A DNA stretch of 64,000 bases from Bosea sp. 124 (lineage in GTDB: Bacteria; Pseudomonadota; Alphaproteobacteria; Rhizobiales; Beijerinckiaceae): the NCBI RefSeq assembly GCF_003046175.1, contig NZ_PZZM01000001.1, positions 1,063,001 to 1,127,000 of the forward strand, given 5' to 3'. Position numbers and translations under genes: made by a program. How positions within the stretch are numbered: position 1 is the first letter of the stretch; every line of letters starts with the position of its first letter. The notes beneath the pieces were generated by a model that saw only the letters and a program-made list of their open reading frames with translations, ran no database searches and was not told the origin of the DNA. Below are positions 5,990-59,643 of the stretch, piece by piece.

Positions 5990-8647
5990 TTGGAAAAGCT
6001 GAAGGTCTATCGCCAGAAGCGCAATTTCGAAAAGACCAAGGAGCCGGACGGCGATGCGTCAGTCGTCGCGTCCAATCGGCTGCGCTTCGTGATCCAGAAG
6101 CATGATGCCACGCGCCTGCATTACGATCTTCGTCTGGAAGTCGAGGGTGTCTTCCGCTCGTGGGCGGTGACCAGGGGCCCCTCTCTCGATCCATCCGACA
6201 AGCGCCTGGCCGTAGAGGTCGAGGACCATCCCCTGCCCTACGGCGATTTCGAGGGCACGATCCCCAAGGGCCAGTATGGCGGCGGCACGGTCCAGCTCTG
6301 GGACCGCGGCTTTTGGCAGCCGGAGGGCCGGACCAGCCCGGAAAAGCAGCTCGAGAAGGGCGAGCTGAAATTCGAACTCGACGGCGAGCGCCTGCGTGGC
6401 AGCTTCGTCCTCGTTCGGATGCGCCGTGACCGCGACGGCGGCAAACGCACCAACTGGCTCTTGATCAAGCACCGCGACAAGCATGCGGTTGAAAGCCATG
6501 GCGACGCGGTCCTCTCAGACGACAAGTCGGTGGCGTCAGGACGCAGCATGGCGGCGATCGCTGCGGGCAAGGGCCGATCGCCCAAGCCCTTCATGCTGAA
6601 GGATGACGTCCTCGCACCCGATGCGGAGTGGGACAGCCGCCAAGGGCTCGCCGCGAGCGAAAGGCGCCCACAGGCCAAGCATGCCTCCAAGCCTGCAACC
6701 GCATCGGCCACCGCGTCCAAGTCAAAAAATTCCGTCGCTGCTCCCGCTCTTCCGGCCTTCATCGAGCCCCAGCTTTGTCGAAGCGTAGAGCGGCCCGCCA
6801 GCGGAGGGGATTGGGTCCACGAGATCAAGTTCGATGGCTACCGGATCCAGATGAGGGTCGAGAACGGCGTCGTCACGCTCAAGACCCGGAAGGGTCTCGA
6901 TTGGACCACCAGGTTCGACGCGATGGCGAAGGCCGCGGCGGGTCTGCCCGACACGATCATCGATGGCGAGATCGTCGCACTCGACGACCATGGCTCGCCG
7001 GATTTCGCGGCGCTCCAAGCTGCTCTGTCCGAGGACAAGACGGACGACCTGGTCTTCTTCGGCTTCGACATGCTCTTCGACGGGAGCGCCGACCTTCGAG
7101 AGGAGCCGCTCCTCGCCAGGAAGGAGCGGCTGAAGAGCTATCTGGAAGAACATGCCGATGGCGTGACGCTGCGCTATGTCGAGCACTTCGATTCCGGCGG
7201 CGACGCCATCCTGAAATCAGCCTGCCGGCTGTCGTTGGAAGGCATCGTCTCGAAGGCGACCGAAGCGCCCTATGTCTCCGGGCGCAGCGACAGCTGGACG
7301 AAGGCCAAGTGTCGCGCTGGGCATGAGGTCGTGATCGGGGGCTGGTCGACGACGGCAGGCAAGTTCAAATCGCTTCTGGTCGGTGTCAACCGGGGCTCGC
7401 ATTTCGTCTATGTGGGTCGCGTTGGCACCGGCTACAGTGCGGCCAAGATCAAAGCTCTGATGCCAAAGCTCAAGGCCGTGGTAGCCGAGAATTCGCCTTT
7501 TACTGGCATAGGGGCGCCCAAGCGCGAGGCCGGCGTAAACTGGCTGAAGCCCGTGCTCGTCGCCGAGATCGCCTTTGCCGGGTGGACCGGCGACGGCATG
7601 GTCCGTCAGGCGGCTTTCAAGGGATTGCGGGAGGACAAGCCGGCCGAAGAGGTGGAAGCAGACCTACCAGCAGATCCCGCGAAGGTCGAGACGCCCGAGC
7701 CAACGCCGGCGCGATCGCGCGGACGCGGCGGCCGTGCACTCGTCATGGGCGTCGGCATCAGCCATCCCGACAAGGCACTTTGGCCACATGCGGAGGACGA
7801 CCGGCCCGTCTCGAAGCAGGATCTTGCCGAGTATTTCGAAGCCATCGGCGAATGGATGCTTCCCCATATTAAGGGTCGACCCTGTTCCCTCGTCCGAACG
7901 CCAGACGGCATCGAGGGTGAGACGTTTTTCCAGCGCCATGCCGGGATGGGGACGTCGAATCTGTTCGAGCTCGTCCGCGTCTCGGGCGACAGGAGGCCAT
8001 ATCTGCAGATCGACCGGATCGAGGCGCTCGCTGCGGCAGCCCAGGTCGGGGGTATCGAGCTACACCCCTGGAACTGCGTGCCAGGCTCTCCCGAGATACC
8101 CGGGCGCCTCGTCTTCGATCTCGACCCCGGGCCAGGCGTGACCTTCGGCGATGTGATCGACGCGGCCAAGCAGATGCGAGAGCGGCTCGAGGCCCTCGGT
8201 CTGGTCAGCTTCTGCAAGACCACCGGCGGCAAGGGCCTCCATGTCGTCGTGCCGCTCACATCCGGCAAGCGGGATTCGTGCGACTGGCCGGCGGCCAAGG
8301 ATTTCGCGCGGAGGGTCTGCGCGGAGCTCGCGAGTGACGAGCCGTCGCGCTACGTCATCAACATGGCCAAGCGTCTCCGCAACGGCCGCATCTTCCTCGA
8401 TTATCTCCGCAACGACCGAATGGCGACCGCCGTTGCGCCGCTCTCACCCAGGGCCCGGCCTGGCGCCCATGCCTCGATGCCACTGACGTGGTCACAGGTG
8501 AAGGCGGATCTCGATCCCAGCCGATTCACGGTGAGGACGGTGCCTGGGCTCCTGAAGAAGACGACGGCCTGGGACGGCTACGACGACGCAGCGGGATCGA
8601 TCACCGATGCGATCAAGAAGCTCGGGAAGCGCGCCGCTGCCGCCTGA
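5990..8647 (+). CDS. ligD: ATP-dependent DNA ligase LigD (phosphoesterase-ligase-polymerase)
   Basis: 885 residues, full length. LigD is the multifunctional end-processing and sealing enzyme of bacterial non-homologous end joining. Domain order is as follows. The 3'-phosphoesterase (about 15-170) has [13 protein letters not shown] with His38 and His44. The ligase core (about 245-560) has the adenylated Lys280 in EIKFDGYR. The primase-like polymerase (about 600-880) has metal-binding Asp710 and Asp712 in FDLDPGPG and [13 protein letters not shown]. The start is TTG at 5990, preceded by GGGGGAGG; no ATG is better placed. A low-complexity Lys/Ala/Ser linker (about 220-245) joins the first two domains. 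A Ku gene follows on the same strand, and a second Ku gene lies opposite. Confidence 0.97.
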
Positions 8648-8721: not shown

Positions 8722-9510
8722 ATGGCGCAGCGGACGTTCTGGAAGGGCTATCTCAAGCTGTCGCTGGTGACGTGCCCGGTCGCGATGATGCCGGCCCGCT
8801 CCGAGAGCGAGAAGGTCCGGTTCCACACGCTCAATCGCAAGACCGGCAACCGCATCCAGAGCCGGTATGTCGACGCCGTCACGGGGAAGCCCGTCGCCGA
8901 TGATGACGAGGTCAAGGGATATCCAAAGGGCGACGACGACTATGTCGTCCTGGAGGATGACGAGCTCGATGCCGTCGCCCTGGAAAGCACCCGGACGATC
9001 GACATCCAGACCTTCGCCCCGCGATCCTCAGTGGGCTGGATCTGGTATGACGCGCCCCATTACCTCGTGCCCGACTCCAAGGTCGGCGAGGAGGCGTTCT
9101 CCGTCATCCGGGAAGCGATGAAGCGGACGAAGACGGTGGGGATTTCCCGTGTCGTGCTGTATCGCCGCGAACGCGCCGTGCTGCTCGATGCGCGCGACAA
9201 CGGCATCGTGCTGTGGACCCTGCGCTATGGCGACGAGGTCCGGCCAGAGAAGGACTATTTCGCCGGAATCAAGGATGCCGAGCCGGATGCCGATCTTCGG
9301 CCGTTGATGGATAAGCTGATCACGACCCGGACGAAGGACTGGTCGCCCGATTTGGCCAAAGACCCCGTCCAGGACGAACTGCTGGCGATCATCAAGGCGA
9401 AACAGAAGGGCCGCAAGCCGACGAAGGCGGCCAAGCCTCAGGCCAGCGAGGGCAATGTTGTGAGCATCATGGACGCGCTCAAGAGGAGCCTCGAGCCTCG
9501 CAAGCAGTGA
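8722..9510 (+). CDS. ku: Ku protein (first copy)
   Basis: 262 residues. Bacterial Ku forms a ring-shaped homodimer that holds DNA ends and recruits LigD. The family signature is clear from the start: FWKGYLKLSLVTCPVAM, then RFHTLNRKTGNRI and later the YDAPHYLVPD and RVVLYRRERAVLL strands of the beta-barrel. The C-terminus has a Lys-rich stretch and the usual SIMDALKRSLE helix. The ATG at 8722 follows GGAG by 8 nt; the in-frame extension upstream overlaps ligD and is not family-like. It lies behind ligD and has its own EcfG-type promoter. Its stop codon directly abuts the stop codon of the opposite Ku gene. Confidence 0.95.
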   Translation: MAQRTFWKGYLKLSLVTCPVAMMPARSESEKVRFHTLNRKTGNRIQSRYVDAVTGKPVADDDEVKGYPKGDDDYVVLEDDELDAVALESTRTIDIQTFAPRSSVGWIWYDAPHYLVPDSKVGEEAFSVIREAMKRTKTVGISRVVLYRRERAVLLDARDNGIVLWTLRYGDEVRPEKDYFAGIKDAEPDADLRPLMDKLITTRTKDWSPDLAKDPVQDELLAIIKAKQKGRKPTKAAKPQASEGNVVSIMDALKRSLEPRKQ

Positions 9511-10347
9511 TCAGCTGGCCTTTTTCCGTGGCGCTTCCTTGGCGGCAGGCGCCTTTGCCGCTTTCTTGCCGGACCCGCTCTTGGCGCTTTCGCGCAGCGC
9601 ATCCAGCAGGCTCACGACTTTCGTCGGCTCGGGCCGCTTCTGCGGCTTGATTTTGCGCCCTTCGATCTTCGCCTGAACCAGTTCGGCCAGAGCGCTCTCA
9701 TAGCGGTCGTCGAACTCTTTCGGATCGAACTCGCCAGCCTTCGTCTTGATGATGTGCTCAGCGAGCTCCAGCATCTCCTCGTCGATCTTGATTTTGGGCA
9801 CGTCGCTGAATGCGTCTGCTGCTGATCGCACCTCGTAGTCGAAGTTCAATGTGGTCGCGATCAATCCCTCGCCATGCGGCCGGATGAGGATCGAGCGCAT
9901 GCGGCGGAAGATGACCGTCCGCGCCAAGGCTGCCGATTTCTGGCCCTTCATGCCCTCGCGGATCAGCGCGAAGGCCTCGGAGGCGACGGGAGAGCTGGGC
10001 GAAACATAGTAAGGCTTGTCGAAGAAGATGTCGTCGATCTCGTCGCAGGGCAGGAACGTCTCGACCGTCAGGGTCTTGTCGCTTTCGGGGATGGCGGCTG
10101 CGATCTCGTCGGGTTCGAGGATGACATAGTCGCCGTCTCCCTTGTCATAGCCCTTGACCTGATCCTCAGTCTCCACGGGCTTGCCCGAGACCTCGTCGAT
10201 GAACTGGCGATGGACGCGGTTGCCGGTCTTTCGGTTCAGCGTGTGGAACGAGATGCGCTCGGAGGTCGAGGCCGCCGTGTAGAGCGATACCGGGCAGGTC
10301 ACCTCGGCGATCTTGAGAACGCCTTTCCAGACAGCGCGCGGAGCCAT
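9511..10347 (-). CDS. ku: Ku protein (second copy)
   Basis: 278 residues, a diverged paralogue of the neighbouring Ku. It has WKGVLKIAEVTCPVSLY, RISFHTLNRKTGNRVH, and the barrel strand TVIFRRMRSILIRPHG. The C-terminal tail is long and basic (Lys/Ala repeats, ending in RKKAS), which in Ku proteins contributes to DNA binding and LigD recruitment. The two Ku genes are convergent with zero spacing. Hyphomicrobiales often carry several Ku genes that may form homo- or heterodimers; which partner it uses here cannot be told. Its promoter region is shared with the divergent gene at 10447. Confidence 0.95.
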   Translation of the reverse strand: MAPRAVWKGVLKIAEVTCPVSLYTAASTSERISFHTLNRKTGNRVHRQFIDEVSGKPVETEDQVKGYDKGDGDYVILEPDEIAAAIPESDKTLTVETFLPCDEIDDIFFDKPYYVSPSSPVASEAFALIREGMKGQKSAALARTVIFRRMRSILIRPHGEGLIATTLNFDYEVRSAADAFSDVPKIKIDEEMLELAEHIIKTKAGEFDPKEFDDRYESALAELVQAKIEGRKIKPQKRPEPTKVVSLLDALRESAKSGSGKKAAKAPAAKEAPRKKAS

Positions 10348-20298: not shown

Positions 20299-21192
20299 GT
20301 GAGTGGATCACCCGTCAGTGCGCCGCCGGCAGCCGTTTCGATCGCCACATTCAACGTCAATAACGTGAACAGGCGATTGTCGAACCTCTTGGGCTGGCTC
20401 GCAGCGCGAAAGCCCGACGTCGTCTGCCTGCAGGAACTGAAATCATCAGACGACGCCTTCCCTGCAGACGCGCTGGAGAATGCCGGCTACGGCGCCGTAT
20501 GGAGGGGGCAGAGAACCTGGAATGGTGTCGCGATCCTGGCGCGCGGGAGCACACCGATCGTAACTCGGACCAGCCTTCCGGGCGACGCCGATGACATGCA
20601 GGCGCGATATATCGAGGCCGCCGTCAACGGCATCCTGATTGCGTCGATTTACGTGCCCAATGGCAATCCCCAACCCGGCCCCAAATTCGCCTACAAACTC
20701 GCGTGGTTCGATCGGCTACGGGCCCATGCGGCCACGCTGCTGGCTGCAAAAGTGCCCGTGGTCATGGCGGGAGATTATAACGTCGTGCCGACCGACCTGG
20801 ACATCTACCGCACGACCTCTTGGGTAGACGACGCTTTGCTTCACCCCAAAAGCCGGCATGCCTTTCACAGCCTCGTTTCGCAGGGCTGGACCGATGCCTT
20901 GCGCGAAATTCATCCGGGCGCGCAGGTCTTCACGTTTTGGCATTACATGCGCCAGAGATGGAAGAGAAATGCCGGCCTGCGGCTCGACCACCTGCTGCTC
21001 AGTCCCGAGGTCGCACGCAGGCTGCAGGACGCAAGCGTCGATCGTTCGATCCGTGGCCTCGACGGGGCCAGCGACCACGCGCCCGTGTGGATCACGCTCG
21101 GCAACGAGGTTCGGACAAAAGGGTCGACCCGTCGAAGCGCGCGAGAGGCTGGCCCGGCAGGACATCGCCTGCCGGGCCAGGTTCGTGGTTAG
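20299..21192 (+). CDS. xthA: Exodeoxyribonuclease III-type AP endonuclease
   Basis: 297 residues. ExoIII cuts at abasic sites and trims 3' ends during base-excision repair. Family motifs: IATFNVNNVNRR (metal-binding Asn), VVCLQELK with the catalytic Glu at about 50, VPNGNP, VVMAGDYNVVP with Asp/Asn, and the closing GASDHAPVWI with the catalytic Asp-His pair. The start is GTG at 20299; a mini-ORF with a strong ribosome site ends 6 nt earlier and may feed ribosomes onto it. The last 25 residues beyond the family core are basic and partly encoded by a hairpin (21149-21180). Confidence 0.9.
   Translation: MSGSPVSAPPAAVSIATFNVNNVNRRLSNLLGWLAARKPDVVCLQELKSSDDAFPADALENAGYGAVWRGQRTWNGVAILARGSTPIVTRTSLPGDADDMQARYIEAAVNGILIASIYVPNGNPQPGPKFAYKLAWFDRLRAHAATLLAAKVPVVMAGDYNVVPTDLDIYRTTSWVDDALLHPKSRHAFHSLVSQGWTDALREIHPGAQVFTFWHYMRQRWKRNAGLRLDHLLLSPEVARRLQDASVDRSIRGLDGASDHAPVWITLGNEVRTKGSTRRSAREAGPAGHRLPGQVRG
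21149..21180. terminator. Hairpin between convergent xthA and DUF892 genes
   Basis: Perfect 13-bp GC-rich inverted repeat (21149-21161 with 21168-21180), loop ACATCG. It lies within the last codons of xthA and 9 nt beyond the DUF892 stop. It lacks a T tract on either side, so it may slow or stabilise transcripts but is not a classical intrinsic terminator. Confidence 0.4.
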
Positions 21193-28956: not shown

Positions 28957-29727
28957 ATGCCTGCAATCGCCCTAACCAAGGAACGAACGCTTCCCACACC
29001 CGTTGCCGGTCTGACCGCGATCGGATCCTGCCAGCCCGCGTGGATCCCTGGTGTCATTTGGCGAGGCTCGCAAGATTCGTTGCGGTCGCACAAGCCGGCT
29101 GCACACCTGGAGGCTGCTCCTTTGGGCTCTGGCCTGAGAGAAGACCTAGATCATCACGCGCTGCATGTCTGCGTGGACATGCAAAAGCTCTTCGCGCCCG
29201 GATCGCCTTGGCACGTTCCCTGGACGATGGACGTTTTGCCGGCCGTGACGGACATCGCCCGTCGGCATCCGGCCCGCACGCTTTTCACGCGCTTCATCCC
29301 GGCGCGGAAGGCGGGAGGCGGCCCCGGCGTGTGGCGCAAATATTACGAGAAGTGGTCCCAGGTCACACTGGAGCGGGAAGGCGCTGCACTGGTCGAGCTG
29401 CATCCCGCACTGTCTGAGTTGGTCCCTCCAGCCCGGGTGCTGGATAAGCACGTTTATTCGCCCTGGACGGAAGGCGGGATGGATCAGCTCCTGGGCGGTA
29501 CCGGAATCGACACGCTGATCGTCACCGGAGGCGAGACCGACGTTTGCGTGTTGGCAACGGTGCTGGGAGGCATCGACCGAGGCTATCGTGTCATTGTCGT
29601 GAGCGACGCCTTGTGCAGCTCCGCCGATCGGCAGCACCATGCGCTCCTGACGCTTTATCGCGAGCGCTTCAGCGAGCAGGTGGAGGTCACGACCGTCGCG
29701 GAAGTGATCGAGCGGTGGCGACCATGA
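28957..29727 (+). CDS. Isochorismatase-family cysteine hydrolase
   Basis: 256 residues. The family cleaves C-N or ether bonds in small molecules (isochorismate, nicotinamide, N-carbamoyl compounds). The triad is visible: Asp in HVCVDMQKLF (about residue 74), Lys in LDKHVYSPW, and Cys in GGETDVCVLATVLGG. The substrate is not identifiable; GxETDVCV is common to many. The first 60 residues precede the family core and may be a misplaced start, but no better start with a ribosome site is visible. Its TGA overlaps the ATG of the glycosylase gene, so the two are translationally coupled. Confidence 0.88.
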   Translation: MPAIALTKERTLPTPVAGLTAIGSCQPAWIPGVIWRGSQDSLRSHKPAAHLEAAPLGSGLREDLDHHALHVCVDMQKLFAPGSPWHVPWTMDVLPAVTDIARRHPARTLFTRFIPARKAGGGPGVWRKYYEKWSQVTLEREGAALVELHPALSELVPPARVLDKHVYSPWTEGGMDQLLGGTGIDTLIVTGGETDVCVLATVLGGIDRGYRVIVVSDALCSSADRQHHALLTLYRERFSEQVEVTTVAEVIERWRP

Positions 29728-30308
29728 GGCCAGATCATCTCAGAGCGCTGGGACTGACGCCGCAATCCCCCGCTGTCGTATTCGATACCGATGCACCCGC
29801 TCTCGCCTTAGGGCTGATCGGAGCATCGCTTTTCGTCGATGGGGTGGGCGGCATGATCGTCGAGACGGAAGCGTATATGCGCGATGATCCCGCCTCGCAC
29901 AGCTTCCGGGGTCCAACGATCCGCAATGCTGCGATGTTCGGCCCACCAGGTCATGCCTACGTCTATCGCTCATACGGTCTGCACTGGTGTCTCAACATCG
30001 TCGCGGCCGATGGGGGCGCGGTCCTGCTGAGAGCGCTAGCTCCGCTGGAGGGGCTCGATGTGATGGCCCTCAGGCGCGGTAAGGGACTGCTCTGCGCTGG
30101 CCCGGGACGTCTCGCGCAGGCACTGGGCATCGACATGAGCCACAATGGCCTCGACATGAGGCGCTCCCCCTTCTGCTGGGGAGATCGGAGCGAACTCCCG
30201 GATTTCGTCCAGGGGACGCGGATCGGGATCAGCAAGGCGCGCGACCGGCCCTGGCGGTTTGGCTTGCGGCGTTCGCCTCATCTCAGTCGGCCCTTCCCCA
30301 CATCTTAG
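29724..30308 (+). CDS. DNA-3-methyladenine glycosylase (AAG/MPG family)
   Basis: 194 residues. AAG-type glycosylases remove alkylated and deaminated purines. Active-site elements align with human AAG: ETEAY with Glu49 and Tyr51, then His59, RNAAMFGPPGHAYVY and YGLHWCLNIV. Length is typical for bacterial members. The ATG overlaps the stop of the hydrolase gene by ATGA, so expression is coupled. With LigD, Ku and xthA nearby, this adds another DNA-repair gene to the segment. Confidence 0.92.
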   Translation: MRPDHLRALGLTPQSPAVVFDTDAPALALGLIGASLFVDGVGGMIVETEAYMRDDPASHSFRGPTIRNAAMFGPPGHAYVYRSYGLHWCLNIVAADGGAVLLRALAPLEGLDVMALRRGKGLLCAGPGRLAQALGIDMSHNGLDMRRSPFCWGDRSELPDFVQGTRIGISKARDRPWRFGLRRSPHLSRPFPTS

Positions 30309-52528: not shown

Positions 52529-53308
52529 ATGCAGAGATCGGTTGGCTGGATGATCGCGGCGGCGCTTCTGGCGCTGCATCTCTGCGCTGCAGCCGATGCG
52601 CAGTCACGAGGTCGTGGCCGTTCCGACAATGAAGTCGCAACCCCGCTCATCATGACCCCGTTGCCCCCGCGACGCCCTGCCGACCTGACGGCAAGCAAGG
52701 CAAAGCCCGCCAAGACGCCCCCCGCCCCCACCGCACCAGACGGACCGATGGGCCCGCCGGCCTGTTTTGCGACCTTCTTCAAGCGCGGCGGCATCGCCTT
52801 GCCTGTAGCCCCGGAGAGCGGCGACGGCGCGTGCGAAATCACGGACCCCGTGACCTTTCGCGCCATCTCCATGCCCGGGGGAGCGAAGGTCGAGCTCGAC
52901 AGCGCCATCACGGTCACTTGCGCCTTCGCGGTCGAGCTCCTCGATTGGGTTCGCGACGACCTGCCCGGCATCATCTCCCGCGAGAACGGCACGCTTTCCA
53001 GGCTTATCGGCGTTGGGGGCCACGCCTGCCGACCGCGCAACGGCGTGCCCGGCGCTCAGATCAGCGAGCATGCGACCGGGAATGCGCTCGATCTTGGCGC
53101 CCTGCGTCTTGCAGATGGCCGAACCCTCACCCTGGTAGGCACGGACGCCGCGACGCGTACCCTGCGGGAGGCACTCAAGACCAGCTCCTGTGCGCGCTTC
53201 AGGACGGTCCTCGGCCCGGGCTCGGATGACTCGCACAAGGACCATCTGCATCTCGACATGCGCCAGAGGCCGCGCGACTACAAGATCTGCCAATGGCACG
53301 TCGACTGA
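52529..53308 (+). CDS. Secreted extensin-like family protein
   Basis: 259 residues. A signal peptide ends near residue 24 (AAADA before QS). A Pro/Lys/Ala-rich linker (about 30-80) leads to the extensin-like C-terminal domain. This domain has Cys pairs (PPACF, GACEI, VTCAF, HACRP, SSCARF, KICQW), the metal-ligand-like motif SEHATGNALDLG and the later DDSHKDHLHLD. The fold is related to D-Ala-D-Ala carboxypeptidases, so peptidoglycan hydrolysis is plausible. Coupled to the L,D-transpeptidase gene. Confidence 0.85.
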   Translation: MQRSVGWMIAAALLALHLCAAADAQSRGRGRSDNEVATPLIMTPLPPRRPADLTASKAKPAKTPPAPTAPDGPMGPPACFATFFKRGGIALPVAPESGDGACEITDPVTFRAISMPGGAKVELDSAITVTCAFAVELLDWVRDDLPGIISRENGTLSRLIGVGGHACRPRNGVPGAQISEHATGNALDLGALRLADGRTLTLVGTDAATRTLREALKTSSCARFRTVLGPGSDDSHKDHLHLDMRQRPRDYKICQWHVD

Positions 53309-53352
53309 CCAGCGCCGAAACTTCCTGAGGCATCTAACAGGGACGATCTGCC

Positions 53353-53607
53353 ATGTCCGACGCGATTGACGCTCTCGAAAGCCGCTACGGCGGCGGCCCG
53401 CTGACGGTCCAGATCCGCCAGGACGTGAAGCGCGGCGGCGAATTGATGGCGACCTATGAGATGGAATATCCGTGCTTGCGCAATGCGATGCTTGCGATCG
53501 CAGGCGATCTGCGAGAGGGCCGCGTCGAGACGATCCAGTTCGCAGGCCGTCCCATCTCGGCCGAGGATCTACATGCCCTCGCGAAATGGACCGACGGATC
53601 AACCTGA
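53353..53607 (+). CDS. Hypothetical 84-residue protein
   Basis: A small soluble protein with alternating strand and helix patterns (LTVQIRQDVKRGGELMATYE, then a helix with a Glu/Arg-rich face). The ATG at 53353 has AACAGGGACGAT upstream, a modest site. It follows the extensin-like gene by 44 nt and is convergent with the DUF763 gene. No family recognised. Confidence 0.6.
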   Translation: MSDAIDALESRYGGGPLTVQIRQDVKRGGELMATYEMEYPCLRNAMLAIAGDLREGRVETIQFAGRPISAEDLHALAKWTDGST

Positions 53608-53627
53608 ATCGGCTGGCGCTCCCGTCG

Positions 53628-54908
53628 TCACCCGCGCTGCGCTTTCGCACTCGGGCGAGAGGCTCCTTCGGGCTCCTGCTGCTCCCAGCCGAAAATGCTC
53701 CGCCCCCCATACTCCGCCGAGCGACTGCGTTCCTCCTCAACATATTCGTCCAGCGTCGGGCCGGTCGCCCCACGCTCGAGCCTCCGGCTCTCGCGATCGA
53801 GCCTCGCAATGGCGGCGAGCCGATCGTCCTGCCCGATCTTCGCCCGATCGACGGCGGATCTCAGCACCGCGATCGTCTGGTCATAAACCTTGGTTGGCAC
53901 GGCAAAGGGCTGCCGGTCCTTGCCGCCATGCGCGAGCGAAAATCGTGCGGGATCGGCAAAACGGCACGGCGCGCCGTGCACCACCTCGGCCACCATCGCG
54001 AGCGACCGCACCGTCCGGGCTCCGACGCCGGGGACGAGCAGCAATTCAGAGAAATCCGTCGGTCCACTGTCCGCAGCTGCCGCCAGCGCGCCATGAAGAC
54101 GGCGCGCAATCACGTCCTTCGGCCTGACATCGTGATGCGCCGGCATCACCAGATGCGGCAGAGCAAGCTGGGCAGGCGACAACGCCGGCGGCGCCCGGTC
54201 GCGTTCCAGTGCAGTAAACTCCCTGACGATCGCGTCCGGCCCGAGGCCGCGGAGCATCTCGACCTGGCCGTCGCGAGACGAGCCGGCGCGCGCATCTGTC
54301 AGGTTGATAATCCTGCCCTGGTTCTGTCCTTCGATAGCTGCATGAGGCGCATCGACGAAGCTGCCAAGCCCTTCTGACTGCCAGTGATAGCGCCGGGCAA
54401 GGCCACCATCGCCGTTCATGCCCTGCTGCACCACGACCCATCGGCCGTCATCTGCGACGATGAAGGCGTGCAGATAGAGATCGAAGCCGTCCTGCACCGC
54501 GGCGCTGTCGACCTTCGCAACAAGCCTGCTGGCCTTAGCCAGCACCAGCCCGTCGAAACCCACTTTGGCGCCGATGCGCTCAAGCTCCATCGGCGTCTGT
54601 CGCGAATGACTGCCGCGTCCGCCACAGACATGCAGGCCGAGTTCACCAGACAGGGGTGCCAACCCGCGCTTGAGCGCCCCGATGACACTGGTGGTGATGC
54701 CGGAGGAATGCCAGTCCATCCCCATCACCGCGCCGAACGACTGGAACCAGAACGGATGTGCGAGGCGCCGCAGCAGCTCGTCCCGCCCGTAGTGATGGAT
54801 GATCGCCTCGCAGATCACCGCGCCAAGCCGGGTCATGCGTTGCCCGAGCCAAGCCGGAACGCGCCCGTGGTGCAAGGGCAGATCGGCGCTGCCCGATCGA
54901 CGCGTCAT
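53628..54908 (-). CDS. DUF763 protein behind a LexA box
   Basis: 426 residues, full length. The DUF763 signature is at the start: RRSGSADLPLHHGRVPAWLG, then FGAVMGMDWHSSGITTSVIG and the LHVCGGRGSHSRQTP segment. Near residue 295 a helix-hairpin-helix-like motif LLLVPGVGARTVRSLAMVAE suggests DNA binding. The C-terminal quarter is acidic and helical, and ends in Arg/Ser/Pro-rich residues. DUF763 has no settled function; the Cys/His/Ser residues above could form a catalytic or metal site. Thirteen nucleotides upstream of the ATG lies GTTC-N7-GTTC, the alphaproteobacterial LexA site, so it should belong to the SOS response. Confidence 0.85.
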   Translation of the reverse strand: MTRRSGSADLPLHHGRVPAWLGQRMTRLGAVICEAIIHHYGRDELLRRLAHPFWFQSFGAVMGMDWHSSGITTSVIGALKRGLAPLSGELGLHVCGGRGSHSRQTPMELERIGAKVGFDGLVLAKASRLVAKVDSAAVQDGFDLYLHAFIVADDGRWVVVQQGMNGDGGLARRYHWQSEGLGSFVDAPHAAIEGQNQGRIINLTDARAGSSRDGQVEMLRGLGPDAIVREFTALERDRAPPALSPAQLALPHLVMPAHHDVRPKDVIARRLHGALAAAADSGPTDFSELLLVPGVGARTVRSLAMVAEVVHGAPCRFADPARFSLAHGGKDRQPFAVPTKVYDQTIAVLRSAVDRAKIGQDDRLAAIARLDRESRRLERGATGPTLDEYVEEERSRSAEYGGRSIFGWEQQEPEGASRPSAKAQRG

Positions 54909-54920
54909 GTTAGTTCCTGA

Positions 54921-54935
54921 GAACGAAAAAAGAAC
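54921..54935 (-). promoter_or_regulatory. LexA box (GTTC-N7-GTTC) of the DUF763 gene
   Basis: Minus strand: GTTC, TTTTTTC, GTTC. This is the direct repeat with 7-nt spacing known as the SOS box in alphaproteobacteria. It ends 13 nt before the ATG, where a bound repressor would block transcription. An additional GTTC-CTGA-GAAC palindrome overlaps it (54913-54924). Confidence 0.65.
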
Positions 54936-55001
54936 ATTGACGTAACCCGCGTCTAGGCAAATTACCAGCCCTGAAATTGCAACGCCCGTATCACGCCGGC
55001 C

Positions 55002-55026
55002 GGAACCCGTGCCGCCCGATCAGGTT
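55002..55026 (+). promoter_or_regulatory. EcfG-like promoter of the DUF2171-like gene
   Basis: GGAAC (55002-55006), 16 nt, GGTT (55023-55026), one base off consensus, 32 nt before the ATG at 55059. Confidence 0.4.
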
Positions 55027-55058
55027 GCCTAGGCGGGGCGATGATCAGGAGTGACGCA

Positions 55059-55238
55059 ATGCTGGATGTTCAGAAAATCAGAGAGGGTCTCGAGGTCGTG
55101 GGATCGGACAGCACCCATGTCGGCTCAGGCGGATCGCATCATTATCTGAGTTCGGACCTGATTGCCGACATCGGCGACAAGATCGTGCTGGTCGTCTCGG
55201 CCGAGGAGGCGCGCCAGCAATGGTCGGCGGTCGACTGA
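55059..55238 (+). CDS. Shortened DUF2171-like protein
   Basis: 59 residues. ATG at 55059 follows AGGAG by 9 nt. The start (MLDVQKIREGLEVVGSDSTH) and the SGGSHHYLSSDLI segment match the DUF2171 family, whose members have about 75-80 residues. The usual central strand-turn between the two (typically a Val-Asp-x-Val ... Leu-Thr-Lys stretch) is missing, about 20 residues. The frame is intact, so it is a true short form or an in-frame deletion. Stress-associated family without known activity. Confidence 0.65.
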   Translation: MLDVQKIREGLEVVGSDSTHVGSGGSHHYLSSDLIADIGDKIVLVVSAEEARQQWSAVD

Positions 55239-55335
55239 CGGCCGCCTGTTCGATGCCCCGATAGCTCGGTCTCGGCCTTGGTCGGTCGGACAAGGCAGAG
55301 ACCCCGACAGCACCATTCTTAGGAGGACAAAGGAA

Positions 55336-55524
55336 ATGCCGGCAAAATCAGCAGCACAGCAAAAGGCGGCGGGCGCCGCCTTGGCCGCAAAGCGCGGCGA
55401 AATCAAAAAGTCCGAGCTCAAGGGTGCATCCAAATCGATGGAAAAATCGATGACGGAGAAAGAACTCGACGAGCTCGCCTCGACCAAGCGGAAGGGTAAG
55501 CCCGAGCACGTCTCGAAGTCCTGA
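55336..55524 (+). CDS. DUF3008-family small basic protein
   Basis: 62 residues. The ATG at 55336 follows AAAGGAA. The sequence (MPAKSAAQQKAAGAALAAKR, then KKSELKGASKSM, ending KRKGKPEHVSKS) is typical of DUF3008, a Lys/Ala-rich helical family common in Hyphomicrobiales, sometimes compared with DNA- or RNA-associated proteins. It may be co-transcribed with the DUF2171-like gene (97 nt gap). Confidence 0.85.
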   Translation: MPAKSAAQQKAAGAALAAKRGEIKKSELKGASKSMEKSMTEKELDELASTKRKGKPEHVSKS

Positions 55525-55555
55525 GTGACTCGACGACGTTTGAGCATGGCTGCAC

Positions 55556-55855
55556 ATGACCGCTGATTTCAGAGCTTTGCGCTTCGCGTTCAAGCGGCTT
55601 GAGTGCGAGCTGCAGCCCCGGGTGGCCTCATGGTTGCGCGGGCTGAGACACGCCGGGCCGCGCTGGGTCGGGCTGCCCGCCGGCGTCGCCCTCACCTTCG
55701 GGGGGATCTTCGCAATCCTGCCTTTCCTCGGATTGTGGATGCTCTCGCTCGGCCTGATGCTGATTGCGGCCGATGTACCTCTGCAGCGACCGATGGCACG
55801 GCTGACCATGTGGGGTGCCGATCGCCTTGATCGCGACCATGAGCGCCGGGCTTAG
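55556..55855 (+). CDS. Small membrane protein, hypothetical
   Basis: 99 residues. An amphipathic, basic N-terminal third is followed by a hydrophobic hairpin (about 42-73, GVALTFGGIFAILPFLGLWM) and a basic tail with Arg/Asp/His. It resembles the tripartite layout of small rhizobial membrane proteins of the PGPGW type, but that assignment is weak. Follows the DUF3008 gene by 31 nt. Confidence 0.6.
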   Translation: MTADFRALRFAFKRLECELQPRVASWLRGLRHAGPRWVGLPAGVALTFGGIFAILPFLGLWMLSLGLMLIAADVPLQRPMARLTMWGADRLDRDHERRA

Positions 55856-55892
55856 CTCTCGTGACGCAGCCTTCTCCCAGCGGACATCAGGC

Positions 55893-56189
55893 TCAGTCCG
55901 TCGGATCGAGCGCCTCGGCGACCACCTTCTTCTTTCGCGACGACAGCAGCGTCATCATCAGGATGAAGGCTGCGAGCACGAAGCAGATCGCATTGGTCAG
56001 GATCAGCGGCCATTGTCCCTGCCCGATCCCATAGGCCGTCCAAAGCAGGAAGCCGGTAGTCGTCAGCGCATACATCGGCGGCGACAGGGACGAGGTGTCG
56101 CGTGTCCGCAGGATCCTGAAGGCCTGCGGTACGAAGCTCGTCACCGAGCAGGCTGCCGCCAAGAAACCGATGATCGAAACGGGGTCCAT
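55893..56189 (-). CDS. SemiSWEET sugar transporter
   Basis: 98 residues from the ATG ending at 56189, which is 5 nt after the stop of the PCC-domain gene, so translation is coupled. Three helices: about 3-25, 35-56 and 62-83. The conserved PQ motif is in SFVPQAFRILRTRDTSSLSP. Asn in LTNAICFVL matches the substrate-pocket Asn of SemiSWEETs. Such proteins work as dimers and equilibrate sugars across the inner membrane. It is the last gene of a run that begins at pqqA. Confidence 0.85.
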   Translation of the reverse strand: MDPVSIIGFLAAACSVTSFVPQAFRILRTRDTSSLSPPMYALTTTGFLLWTAYGIGQGQWPLILTNAICFVLAAFILMMTLLSSRKKKVVAEALDPTD

Positions 56190-56646: not shown

Positions 56647-57768
56647 TTAGAGTTGATCCGGCTCGGGGGCCGGCGGCTTCGGAGCGGTCACGTTTGCCGG
56701 ACGCGCCCGCATGACATAGGTCTCGGTGCGCTCCGCCGTGGTCAGCTCTTTGACGCGGTCATGGAAAGGCGACAGCACGCAGACCGGATCGGTGTTACGG
56801 GCATCGCCGGTCAGCGCCATCGCTTGACAACGGCAGCCGCCGAAATCGACGTCGCGCCGCTCGCAGCTCCGGCAAGGCTCGCGCATCCAGTCCGTGCCGC
56901 GGAAAGCCGCGAAGGCCGGAGACTCCTGCCAGATTTCCGCAAGCGAATGGTCCTGCACGCTCCAGAACGACAGGCCCGGGATCGACTGCGCGGCATGGCA
57001 GGGCAGCACCAGCCCGCGCGGCGTGACGTTGATCGACTGCCGGCCCCAGCCATTCATGCAGGGCTTGGGATAGCGCGCGAAATGATCGGAAGGGACATAG
57101 TCGATGGTGATCTGGCCGGCCGTCCGCTCGCGCAGGCTGGCAACCTCATCTCGGCATGCGACTGCCTCCGCCACGTCGGGCATCAGCGCCTCGCGGTTGA
57201 GCGTGGCCCAGCCGTAATACTGCGCGTGGGCGAGCTCTATCCGGCGCGCGCGCAGCGCGATCGCCTCCTCGACCATCGCCGCCATACGCGCCAGGTTGCC
57301 GCGATGCAGGACGGCATTGACTGTCAACGGAAGGCCCGCGGCGACGACCTGCGCGGCAAAGGCGCGCTTGCGCTCATGCGAGCCGCGCAGTCCCGCGATC
57401 CGGTCGGCGTTGTCCCTCAGCATATCCTGGATCGAGAGTTGGAGATGGTCGAGCCCGGCCACCGCCAGCGCCGTCAGCCGCGACTGATCGAGACCGATGC
57501 CGGAGGTGATCAGGTTCGTGTAGAGGCCGGACCGGGCGGCTGCCGCGACCAGTTCGACGAGGTCCGGCCGCGTTGCTGGCTCGCCGCCGGACAGATGCAG
57601 TTGCAGGATGCCGATCTCCGCCGCCTGTTCGAAGACGCGAATCCAGTCGGCTGTAGCCAGTTCGTCAGCCTTGCGGTCGAGCTCGAGCGGATTTGAGCAA
57701 TACGGGCAGGCCAGCGGGCAGCGATGCGTCAGCTCTGCCAGCAGCGCGAAAGGGGCCGGCGCACTCAT
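56647..57768 (-). CDS. pqqE: PQQ biosynthesis radical SAM protein PqqE
   Basis: 373 residues. With PqqD it links Glu and Tyr of the PqqA peptide, the first committed step of PQQ synthesis. The radical SAM cluster is Cys17-x3-Cys21-x2-Cys24 (CPLACPYCSN). LHLSGGEPATRPDL binds S-adenosylmethionine. The C-terminal SPASM part has MNGWGRQSINVTPRGLVLPC, CRSCERRDVDFGGCRCQA and a final Cys for two auxiliary clusters. ATG overlaps the pqqD stop (ATGA). Confidence 0.97.
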   Translation of the reverse strand: MSAPAPFALLAELTHRCPLACPYCSNPLELDRKADELATADWIRVFEQAAEIGILQLHLSGGEPATRPDLVELVAAAARSGLYTNLITSGIGLDQSRLTALAVAGLDHLQLSIQDMLRDNADRIAGLRGSHERKRAFAAQVVAAGLPLTVNAVLHRGNLARMAAMVEEAIALRARRIELAHAQYYGWATLNREALMPDVAEAVACRDEVASLRERTAGQITIDYVPSDHFARYPKPCMNGWGRQSINVTPRGLVLPCHAAQSIPGLSFWSVQDHSLAEIWQESPAFAAFRGTDWMREPCRSCERRDVDFGGCRCQAMALTGDARNTDPVCVLSPFHDRVKELTTAERTETYVMRARPANVTAPKPPAPEPDQL

Positions 57769-58037
57769 GTCTCGACCATCCGCCGGGCGATGAGGTCCTG
57801 AAGCAGCGCGTTCGTCTCGCGCTCGATCCTGCCGCGATCGACCTGGTACTCCTCCGCGAGGCGATCAACGATCTCGCGTAGACTGCGCTGCCCGTCGCAG
57901 AGGTTCAGGATCGCTGCCGAGGAGGTGTTGACGCGCAGCACATGCTCGGGCGCCAGCAGGTTGAAGCCGCCGCGGACGCGGTCCGCCTGGACGCGGACGC
58001 CGCGTGCGAGCTTCGGACGTGTGTCGAGTCCGATCAT
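57765..58037 (-). CDS. pqqD: PQQ biosynthesis peptide chaperone PqqD
   Basis: 90 residues, the usual length. PqqD binds the PqqA peptide and presents it to PqqE. The family pattern is RPKLARGVRVQADRVRGGFN, VLRVNTSSAAILNLCDGQRS and LREIVDRLAEEY. Its ATG overlaps the pqqC stop, and its stop overlaps the pqqE start, so all are coupled. Confidence 0.96.
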   Translation of the reverse strand: MIGLDTRPKLARGVRVQADRVRGGFNLLAPEHVLRVNTSSAAILNLCDGQRSLREIVDRLAEEYQVDRGRIERETNALLQDLIARRMVET

Positions 58038-58762
58038 CGCGCTGGCTCGAAGGCGCCGGGCGGGACATGGCCGGTCTCGCCATAGGCATGGTCGAGCGCA
58101 TCGAGCATCGCCCACAGCACATCGCATTTGAATTCCAGCGCGGCGATGACGGCATCCTGATCGGCCGGCGTCCTCGCATTGGCGATGACATAGGCCAGGG
58201 CGCTCTCGACATCGCGTGAGGCCTGCTCAGGCCGCGCCGTGAAATAGCTCAGACTGTCTTCGCTGACGAAATCGTAGTGTGCGAGCATGCCGGCGACGCG
58301 CGCCTTGATCACCTGCGGCGAGAACAATTCGGTCAGGGACGAGGCAACGGCTTCGAGCAGCGGTCGCGCGCGCACGAAATCCAGATAGGCGCCGACAGCA
58401 AAGCGTGTCGCCGGCAAAACGCCTTTGTAGGCGATGACATCCTGCCGCTCGAAGCCGAGGCTTTCGCAGAGCCGCAGCCAGCGCTCTATGCCGCCCTCTC
58501 CATCCGCCGCGCCGTCATGGTCGACGAGACGCTGGCGCCAGGCGCGCCGCAAAGCGACGTCGTCGAGCCGCGCGATGAGGCTGGCATCCTTGCGCGGGAT
58601 CGCCGCTTGGTAGGCATAGCGATTGAGCGCCCAGGCCTGGACCTCGCCTTTGCTGCAGGCGCCTGAATGTAGCCGCTGATGAAACGGATGCCGGTCATGA
58701 TAGCGCGCCGCGCCGACCGCGCGCAGGCGGGCGAGAAACGCCTCGGGCGAAAGCAGGCTCAC
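58034..58762 (-). CDS. pqqC: Pyrroloquinoline-quinone synthase PqqC
   Basis: 242 residues. PqqC performs the last ring closure and the eight-electron oxidation to PQQ without a metal. The all-helical fold is seen in YHDRHPFHQRLHSGACSKGE, NRYAYQAAIPRKDASLIARL and the later LTELFSPQVIKARVAGMLAH and YFTARPEQASRDVESALAYV segments that carry conserved active-site residues. Start is a GTG overlapping the pqqB stop. Confidence 0.97.
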   Translation of the reverse strand: MSLLSPEAFLARLRAVGAARYHDRHPFHQRLHSGACSKGEVQAWALNRYAYQAAIPRKDASLIARLDDVALRRAWRQRLVDHDGAADGEGGIERWLRLCESLGFERQDVIAYKGVLPATRFAVGAYLDFVRARPLLEAVASSLTELFSPQVIKARVAGMLAHYDFVSEDSLSYFTARPEQASRDVESALAYVIANARTPADQDAVIAALEFKCDVLWAMLDALDHAYGETGHVPPGAFEPAR

Positions 58763-59643
58763 AGCGAGATCTCCAGCCCATCATGGGCGATCTCGACCCC
58801 GGCGCTCTCGACGAGCCTGCGCTCGCGCGAGCCCTCGATCAGGACGGGATTGGTGTTGTTGATATGGGTGTAGATCTTGCGCGACGCCGGCAGCTCCGCC
58901 AGCCAGTCGAGCGAGCCGCCCGGCCCGGTCATCGGCATGTGCCCCATGCGGCGCCCGGTCTTAGGGCCGAGCCCGCCACGTCGCATCTCCTCGTCGTCGA
59001 ACAACGTCCCGTCAAAGAGCACGATATGGGCGCGCTCTGCCCGCTGGCGAACCGCCTGGTTCAGCACAGCGCAACCGGGAATGTACACGAGCGAGGCGTT
59101 CGGACCCTCCATAGCAAGGCCACTCGTCTCGCCGGTCTCACTGTCCGTGATCGGCTCGTCCGCTTCGAGATACAGCGGTGCCTTTCCGGGAACCGGAAAC
59201 AGCGTCAACTCGAATCCAGCATGCGCCGGGATCGGCATCTCCGCCTCAGCGGCAACCCAGTTCGCGCTGAGAGGCTGTAGCATCGGGTTGTCCCTGATCG
59301 CAGCGCGGACCGGTGCGAGAGCCAGGATATCGAGGGCATGGCGTTCTCGAAGCGACAGAAGTCCGGCGACGTGATCGATCTCGGCACTCGTCAGAACGAC
59401 GGTCGAAATCGGCGAATTTCGTTCCGACCTCGGCCACAAATCCGGCGTCGCGCGCAGTTGCTGGCCAATATCCGGCGAAGCGTTGACCAGCACGCACCCA
59501 TCCGGACCCACGAACGCCAGCGAGGACTGTGTTCGCCATACCGCCCGCGGATCGCGCGCCCAGGCGAGCCGACAGTTGGCGCAGCCACAGTTCCATTGAG
59601 GAAAGCCGCCGCCCGCGGCAGAACCGAGAACGACGGCCCGCAT
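58759..59643 (-). CDS. pqqB: PQQ biosynthesis hydroxylase PqqB
   Basis: 294 residues, metallo-beta-lactamase fold. It hydroxylates the tyrosine part of the cross-linked intermediate. The N-terminus has GSAAGGGFPQWNCGCANCRL with the structural-zinc Cys19, Cys21 and Cys24. The active-site motif of the fold is reduced, as in the family (SAEIDHVAGLLSLRE). The ATG ending at 59643 is 5 nt after the pqqA stop. Confidence 0.96.
   Translation of the reverse strand: MRAVVLGSAAGGGFPQWNCGCANCRLAWARDPRAVWRTQSSLAFVGPDGCVLVNASPDIGQQLRATPDLWPRSERNSPISTVVLTSAEIDHVAGLLSLRERHALDILALAPVRAAIRDNPMLQPLSANWVAAEAEMPIPAHAGFELTLFPVPGKAPLYLEADEPITDSETGETSGLAMEGPNASLVYIPGCAVLNQAVRQRAERAHIVLFDGTLFDDEEMRRGGLGPKTGRRMGHMPMTGPGGSLDWLAELPASRKIYTHINNTNPVLIEGSRERRLVESAGVEIAHDGLEISL

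Follow-up and report, generated by a model that had tools for sequence, protein, structure and literature searches.

A LexA-type operator before DUF763 genes of Bosea and other alphaproteobacterial lineages, and a probable accessory role of their products in DNA repair

In the bacterial SOS response, the repressor LexA keeps the genes that carry its box silent until RecA triggers LexA self-cleavage. The family DUF763 (PF05559) is, to our knowledge, not a known part of the bacterial Ku-LigD end joining. Searches of one open-access library for DUF763, PF05559, COG1415 and IPR008482, the last two being numbers that we take to denote the same family, found neither a function nor an SOS link for it in print. 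The LexA motif of Alphaproteobacteria is stated to be GTTC-N7-GTTC (PMC3323433), and the additional SOS genes of this class named in section 8 of that paper are parE, tag, comM, dnaE and splB, DUF763 not being among them. An earlier comparison of proteobacterial LexA regulons, published in 2004 and cited in PMC1839093, may contain a prior mention of the family. Within that library, COG1415 and IPR008482 do not occur, and DUF763 and PF05559 occur solely in PMC554113, where the domain figures in a list for some plant-associated bacteria and archaea.

The window, that is, the whole 64,000-nucleotide stretch of Bosea sp. 124 DNA analysed here, contains a DUF763 gene with a LexA-type box immediately upstream, and the sequence-only reading had proposed it as an undescribed SOS gene of a family without assigned function. 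Both attributes agree with what was found, the first with the literature searches of the one library and the second with the Pfam entry PF05559, which gives no function. The best explanation, with a probability of roughly 0.7, is that DUF763 belongs, in Bosea and several other alphaproteobacterial lineages, to the SOS genes repressed by LexA and most likely encodes an accessory DNA-repair enzyme. The two features at the centre of the analysis are the following:

54921..54935, minus strand: LexA-type operator GTTC-TTTTTTC-GTTC, GTTCTTTTTTCGTTC, the sole exact GTTC-N7-GTTC match in the window

53628..54908, minus strand: DUF763 (PF05559) gene, 426 aa; profile positions 1-319 of 319 covered at 394 bits (Pfam cut-off 35.5)

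The exact match of the box on the coding strand and the whole-profile match of the protein bear out the arrangement described earlier, a box before a full-length DUF763 gene, with the spacing corrected from 13 nt to 12 nt between the box end and the ATG at 54908. The exact pattern occurs once in the 64-kb window versus 1.7 times expected from shuffles, so that the single box, taken alone, is within chance; in the whole genome, GTTC-N7-GTTC is found 119 times versus 67 for the reversed pattern. The significance of the DUF763 box comes, despite the chance-level count in the window, from its position and conservation. A consensus promoter scan gave no sigma-70 site immediately before the gene, while a -10-like element ahead of the box was noted by eye only, and Rfam at gathering scores had no match in window positions 53000-56000. 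A small DUF2171 gene at 55059-55238 (plus strand) is divergent from DUF763 and begins 124 nt past the box, and the ORFs at 56647-59643 (minus strand) read like what is presumably a pqq (PQQ biosynthesis) cluster.

The motif stated for the class in PMC3323433 is also the one that precedes lexA and recA in this genome, to which named Bosea relatives are up to 92% identical. One lexA gene is encoded above the cut-off (178 bits; Pfam LexA_DNA_bind and Peptidase_S24), and its box GAACACAACGCGAAC begins 83 nt ahead of the gene start; the GTTC-N7-GTTC boxes of recA, ssb and a comM-like gene lie 139, 100 and 69 nt upstream, respectively, and each of two umuD-like S24 peptidase genes has a box 36 nt upstream. 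The regions behind this comparison were 20, picked by eye, mainly because of AT-rich spacers, among the matches listed (100 of 119), so that it checks known SOS genes and does not amount to a census. Small uncharacterised ORFs were seen directly behind boxes of the same genome (L140:3233-3442, L132 near 881 and L130:1147-1410), having in common a '..DLIAEHGSERAAIRALLHDMTVLLADADRSVSRGYLRGVFS..'-like sequence; the two of them that were scanned had no Pfam match, and they are possibly new small SOS proteins. Another ORF, of 84 aa (L124:1423-1674, MTAIETYFIQPFRTQRKR..), has no Pfam match and is preceded by a box that begins 37 nt upstream; an ORF resembling it occurs in L132.

Within the genus, the exact box precedes all 17 DUF763 genes detected in 67 Bosea genomes, beginning 24-30 nt ahead of the start codon. 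In the alignment of 16 Bosea promoters (one near-copy excluded), conservation is 100% in the eight GTTC columns and 81-100% in four spacer columns, while in the 45 columns upstream of the box the commonest base takes 31-75% of the rows; Blastn of the 1.45 kb upstream of Bosea DUF763 found flanks common to some pairs only. SOS control of DUF763 in Bosea is, on such phylogenetic footprinting, very probable, and footprinting supports it strongly in several other alphaproteobacterial lineages too.

Beyond the genus, the exact box lies within 150 nt upstream in 46 of 126 distinct DUF763 loci, versus 1/126 for the reversed pattern and 46 of 8619 tiles (0.53%) elsewhere in the same loci. It is present under 23 of 47 labels, which mix genus names with family codes and partly overlap, the boxed groups being Bosea, f29, f16, f50, Kaistia, Faunimonas, Telmatospirillum, Acetobacter, Caulobacteraceae, Sphingomonas and others. 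A quick maximum-likelihood tree of 123 rows requires 19 changes of the box label, at least 7 of them forced by well-supported branches, versus a shuffled mean of 36.2. Some counted boxes are distant from the start, at 93-110 nt (two Sphingomonas and Mesorhizobium camelthorni are examples), or read on the opposite strand, and such boxes could serve other genes. The conserved box upstream of orthologues, for which the sequence-only reading had proposed to look, thus holds throughout Bosea and in several alphaproteobacterial lineages, but not for the 80 of 126 loci without an exact box, 16 of 18 Rhizobium and 15 of 16 Mesorhizobium among them. By genus, the exact box was counted in 2/18 Rhizobium, 1/16 Mesorhizobium, 0/2 Sinorhizobium, 0/6 Microvirga, 0/2 Bradyrhizobium, 1/2 Kaistia, 1/2 Acetobacter and 3/5 Sphingomonas named loci, and all sampled loci of Frateuria, Lysobacter and Bordetella were without it. 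At three f152 loci the same position is taken by a one-mismatch box, GTTTCCCTTTCGTTC; outside them there is no excess of near-boxes, a one-mismatch box within 75 nt occurring in 6/80 loci in all, those of f152 counted, versus 4.35% of tiles. A search of the 126 loci for an E. coli-type box (CTGT-N8-ACAG) within 150 nt was negative, as was one for five LexA-type patterns within 300 nt at the four gamma- and betaproteobacterial DUF763 loci checked. Since the box is missing in most Rhizobium and Mesorhizobium and in all sampled Bradyrhizobium and Microvirga loci, the SOS control would be lineage-specific; for DUF763 as a whole, with the Frateuria, Lysobacter and Bordetella loci added, it is ruled out. 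The box-less Mesorhizobium upstreams (e.g., L042-L045) seem, by eye, to have other stretches in common ('..GCTTCC..CTATCTGT..'), perhaps of another promoter type.

The protein itself was compared in an alignment of 78 diverse sequences, among them those of haloarchaea and of a second group at 39-45% identity to the window protein. Shared throughout are, among others, A8, L10-H13, G15, P18, W20, L21, D65-W-H-S-S-G70, T72, T73, G96, G97, G99, D134, Q139, D140, Y145, H147, W157, Q161-Q-G, A171-R-R-Y-H-W, H327-G-G and D331, and the haloarchaeal members have the same invariant residues, which look like an active site and not merely a fold. Of the conserved Cys/His/Ser segments pointed out earlier, the histidines and serines (H13, H67, S68, S69, H147, H175) are invariant in the 78 sequences, but the cysteine is not family-wide: C95 is invariant in 17 alphaproteobacterial sequences but does not figure among the positions that are invariant, or nearly so, in the 78, and Cys-based catalysis by the family is rejected on this ground. 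No convincing sequence relatives of DUF763 were found in PDB. The C-terminal part contains the following segment:

53979..54053, minus strand: helix-hairpin-helix-like segment, roughly residues 286-310 of the DUF763 protein (..LLLVPGVGARTVRSLAMVAEVV..), from the sequence, with weak Pfam HHH matches in orthologues

Its G294, L303 and E308 are invariant in the 78 sequences. The helix-hairpin-helix-like motif is present in the sequence as had been claimed, but it is weak by profile: matches to Pfam HHH occur in 6 of 17 family members, the best with E 0.0032, and the window protein has none even at E 10. The proposal of a DNA-acting protein draws some support from this segment and more from the gene neighbourhood.

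The window encodes, apart from DUF763, the following DNA-repair genes, spread across 24 kb (5990-30308):

5990..8647, plus strand: DNA ligase D gene (ORF; Pfam LigD_N, DNA_ligase_A_M, DNA_ligase_A_C and LigD_Prim-Pol), with phosphoesterase, ligase and primase-polymerase domains

8722..9510, plus strand: Ku gene (ORF, which may begin upstream, at 8488; Pfam Ku 144.5 bits)

9511..10347, minus strand: second Ku gene (ORF; Pfam Ku 150.8 bits)

20335..21144, plus strand: exonuclease-III-like gene (match extent, ends not refined; 62.6% identical to the Bosea L194 copy; Pfam Exo_endo_phos)

29784..30308, plus strand: methylpurine-DNA glycosylase (MPG) gene (ORF, which may begin upstream, at 29544; Pfam Pur_DNA_glyco 184.9 bits)

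The window glycosylase is 67% identical to the product of the gene adjoining DUF763 on the Bosea NBC_00550 plasmid, where the order is DUF763, MPG glycosylase, a small gene, Ku, Ku and LigD. Among the regions fetched for 13 of the 16 other DUF763-positive Bosea, four have LigD and a pair of Ku genes no more than 10 kb from DUF763, one of them (L195) being the NBC_00550 plasmid, and since L193 is the same plasmid, the five Bosea records with Ku and LigD near DUF763 represent four genomes. The glycosylase is found in three other regions of the 13, six have neither LigD/Ku nor the glycosylase, and the exonuclease-III-like gene is present in five, with a partial match alone in a sixth. Outside Bosea, at least one of the LigD, Ku, exonuclease-III-like and glycosylase genes occurs in the flank of 9 of 80 named loci, each flank extending 8 kb at most and being shorter near a contig end; in Rhizobium herbae and in an Ensifer, 100 and 193 bp separate the MPG gene from DUF763. 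No conserved neighbour was seen on ORF clustering over the 80 named loci, and a conserved operon partner is thus rejected, though some repair genes recur. The DUF763 box is the sole exact one of islands L194 and L197, L196 has an additional exact box about 7 kb away, and L193 has a second box at 2115-2129, about 80 nt before the hypothetical-protein gene NWE53_RS29815, upstream of DUF763. No exact box was found at ku, ligD or the glycosylase gene in the repair islands or the window; therefore, these genes do not form one SOS operon and are not co-regulated with DUF763 via the exact motif.

The recurrence of Ku and LigD raises the alternative that DUF763 is an end-joining accessory factor, which would process broken or lesion-bearing ends before the Ku-LigD joining. 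This narrower reading, considered unlikely, has in common with the accessory-repair reading the four Bosea genomes (the window's own not among them) with Ku and LigD within 10 kb, as well as the presence of Ku in the DUF763-positive genomes tested; it draws further on G004, in which DUF763 is within 4 kb of Ku, and on the flanks of the 80 named loci, with Ku in four, LigD in three and both in two (ku or ligD in 5/80). In the 17 Bosea genomes, the DUF763-Ku distance is up to 10 kb in four and 23-44 kb in three (43.6 kb in the window's own), with ten having Ku farther away or on other contigs, that is, 4/17 within 10 kb versus 0.1 expected and 7/17 within 50 kb versus 0.5 expected; the expectations rest on hand-made Ku cluster counts and assume an independence that descent breaks, and as the Bosea islands may have common descent, the P-values for proximity overstate the association. 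In 36 other genomes, Ku lies within 10 kb in one (0.2 expected) and within 70 kb in four (1.4 expected, P 0.05), so the proximity outside Bosea is weak. Most DUF763 loci are away from Ku, which counts against an end-joining factor, and constant genetic linkage of DUF763 to ku or ligD is not what these genomes have. As to co-occurrence, every DUF763-positive genome tested encodes Ku (53/53, namely 17/17 Bosea and 36/36 others, the latter out of 38 found, with a matched background for Bosea only) versus 38 of 50 DUF763-negative Bosea (Fisher P 0.02), but among Bosea genomes of at least 4.9 Mb the counts are 17/17 versus 29/33 (P 0.18), the association fading at matched genome size to a level that is not significant. 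Ku and non-homologous end joining are stated to go with large genomes (PMC7719229). Furthermore, Sulfolobus acidocaldarius, taken as a control, has DUF763 and no Ku match.

The gene is sporadic, which is among the points in favour of a second alternative, namely, that DUF763 is SOS-induced and serves not repair but growth arrest, defence or mobile-element upkeep. It is carried by 17 of the 67 Bosea genomes; the samples of the order, the class and the phylum, which overlap and include the window's own genome, gave 23/150, 10/385 (a fragment match being one of the ten) and 17/299, respectively. Plasmid-borne copies are present in 230 of 72,556 records, and the accessory islands common to DUF763 and ku may be just stress islands. 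However, phages, viral contigs and PADLOC had no DUF763 match, with weak partial matches only in PHROGs, so that a phage or defence gene is rejected on these searches; the invariant residues are kept in the haloarchaeal members of a family that occurs in archaea as well as bacteria, and the repair neighbours are repeated. A non-repair role is, accordingly, judged improbable. Some DUF763 copies are maybe broken: L158 (Bosea G1287) has an internal TAG with the box still exact, L055 has an early stop (53 aa read), and in L074 the stop in the stretch given may be the end stop. The third alternative, a chance match or another regulator's site with DUF763 outside LexA control, could appeal to the chance-level count in the window and to the 80 box-less loci of 126, but it is very improbable, a chance match being rejected on the conservation of the box, which is kept on diverged flanks in Bosea, precedes lexA and recA in the same genome and recurs in several alphaproteobacterial families.

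The reading of DUF763 as an SOS-controlled accessory repair enzyme may be put in the following steps. LexA would occupy GTTC-N7-GTTC just ahead of the start codon, where it probably covers the site at which transcription starts, and upon RecA activation on damaged DNA it would leave, allowing DUF763 to be made. The C-terminal helix-hairpin-helix of the product may grip DNA, and the invariant polar core of H13, D65-W-H-S-S, D134, Q139-D140, Y145, H147, Q161-Q-G and R172-R-Y-H-W would act chemically on damaged DNA or on DNA ends. The gene is scattered and without a fixed operon partner, and it is met repeatedly near Ku/LigD end-joining and base-excision genes. Thus, the conserved SOS switch together with the tendency to sit near DNA-repair genes makes DUF763 probably a new damage-induced DNA-repair enzyme; the repair function, as judged from residues and neighbours, is likely, though less firmly so than the SOS control in Bosea. 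More tentatively, and with considerable doubt, the family may be a new class of lesion- or DNA-end-processing enzymes of archaea and bacteria, under LexA in some Alphaproteobacteria, that feeds Ku-LigD joining or base-excision repair. The family combines a strictly conserved enzyme-like core, common to archaea and bacteria, with no function found in print in the one library searched; because the conserved LexA operator gives an expression condition and the repair genes nearby reduce the range of substrates to try, it becomes directly testable.

In comparison with the known systems, the DUF763 operator is that of lexA, recA, ssb, the comM-like and the umuD-like genes of this genome, as in the LexA (SOS) regulon of Alphaproteobacteria, whereas the LexA-box control of DUF763 is limited to some lineages. 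With Ku-LigD non-homologous end joining, DUF763 has some accessory islands and the tested genomes in common, but it is usually not adjacent and its box is missing at ku and ligD of the same islands. With respect to the family PF05559, the window protein is a full-length member with the residues invariant across 78 sequences, and to an entry for which Pfam assigns no function the present analysis adds a regulon and a gene neighbourhood.
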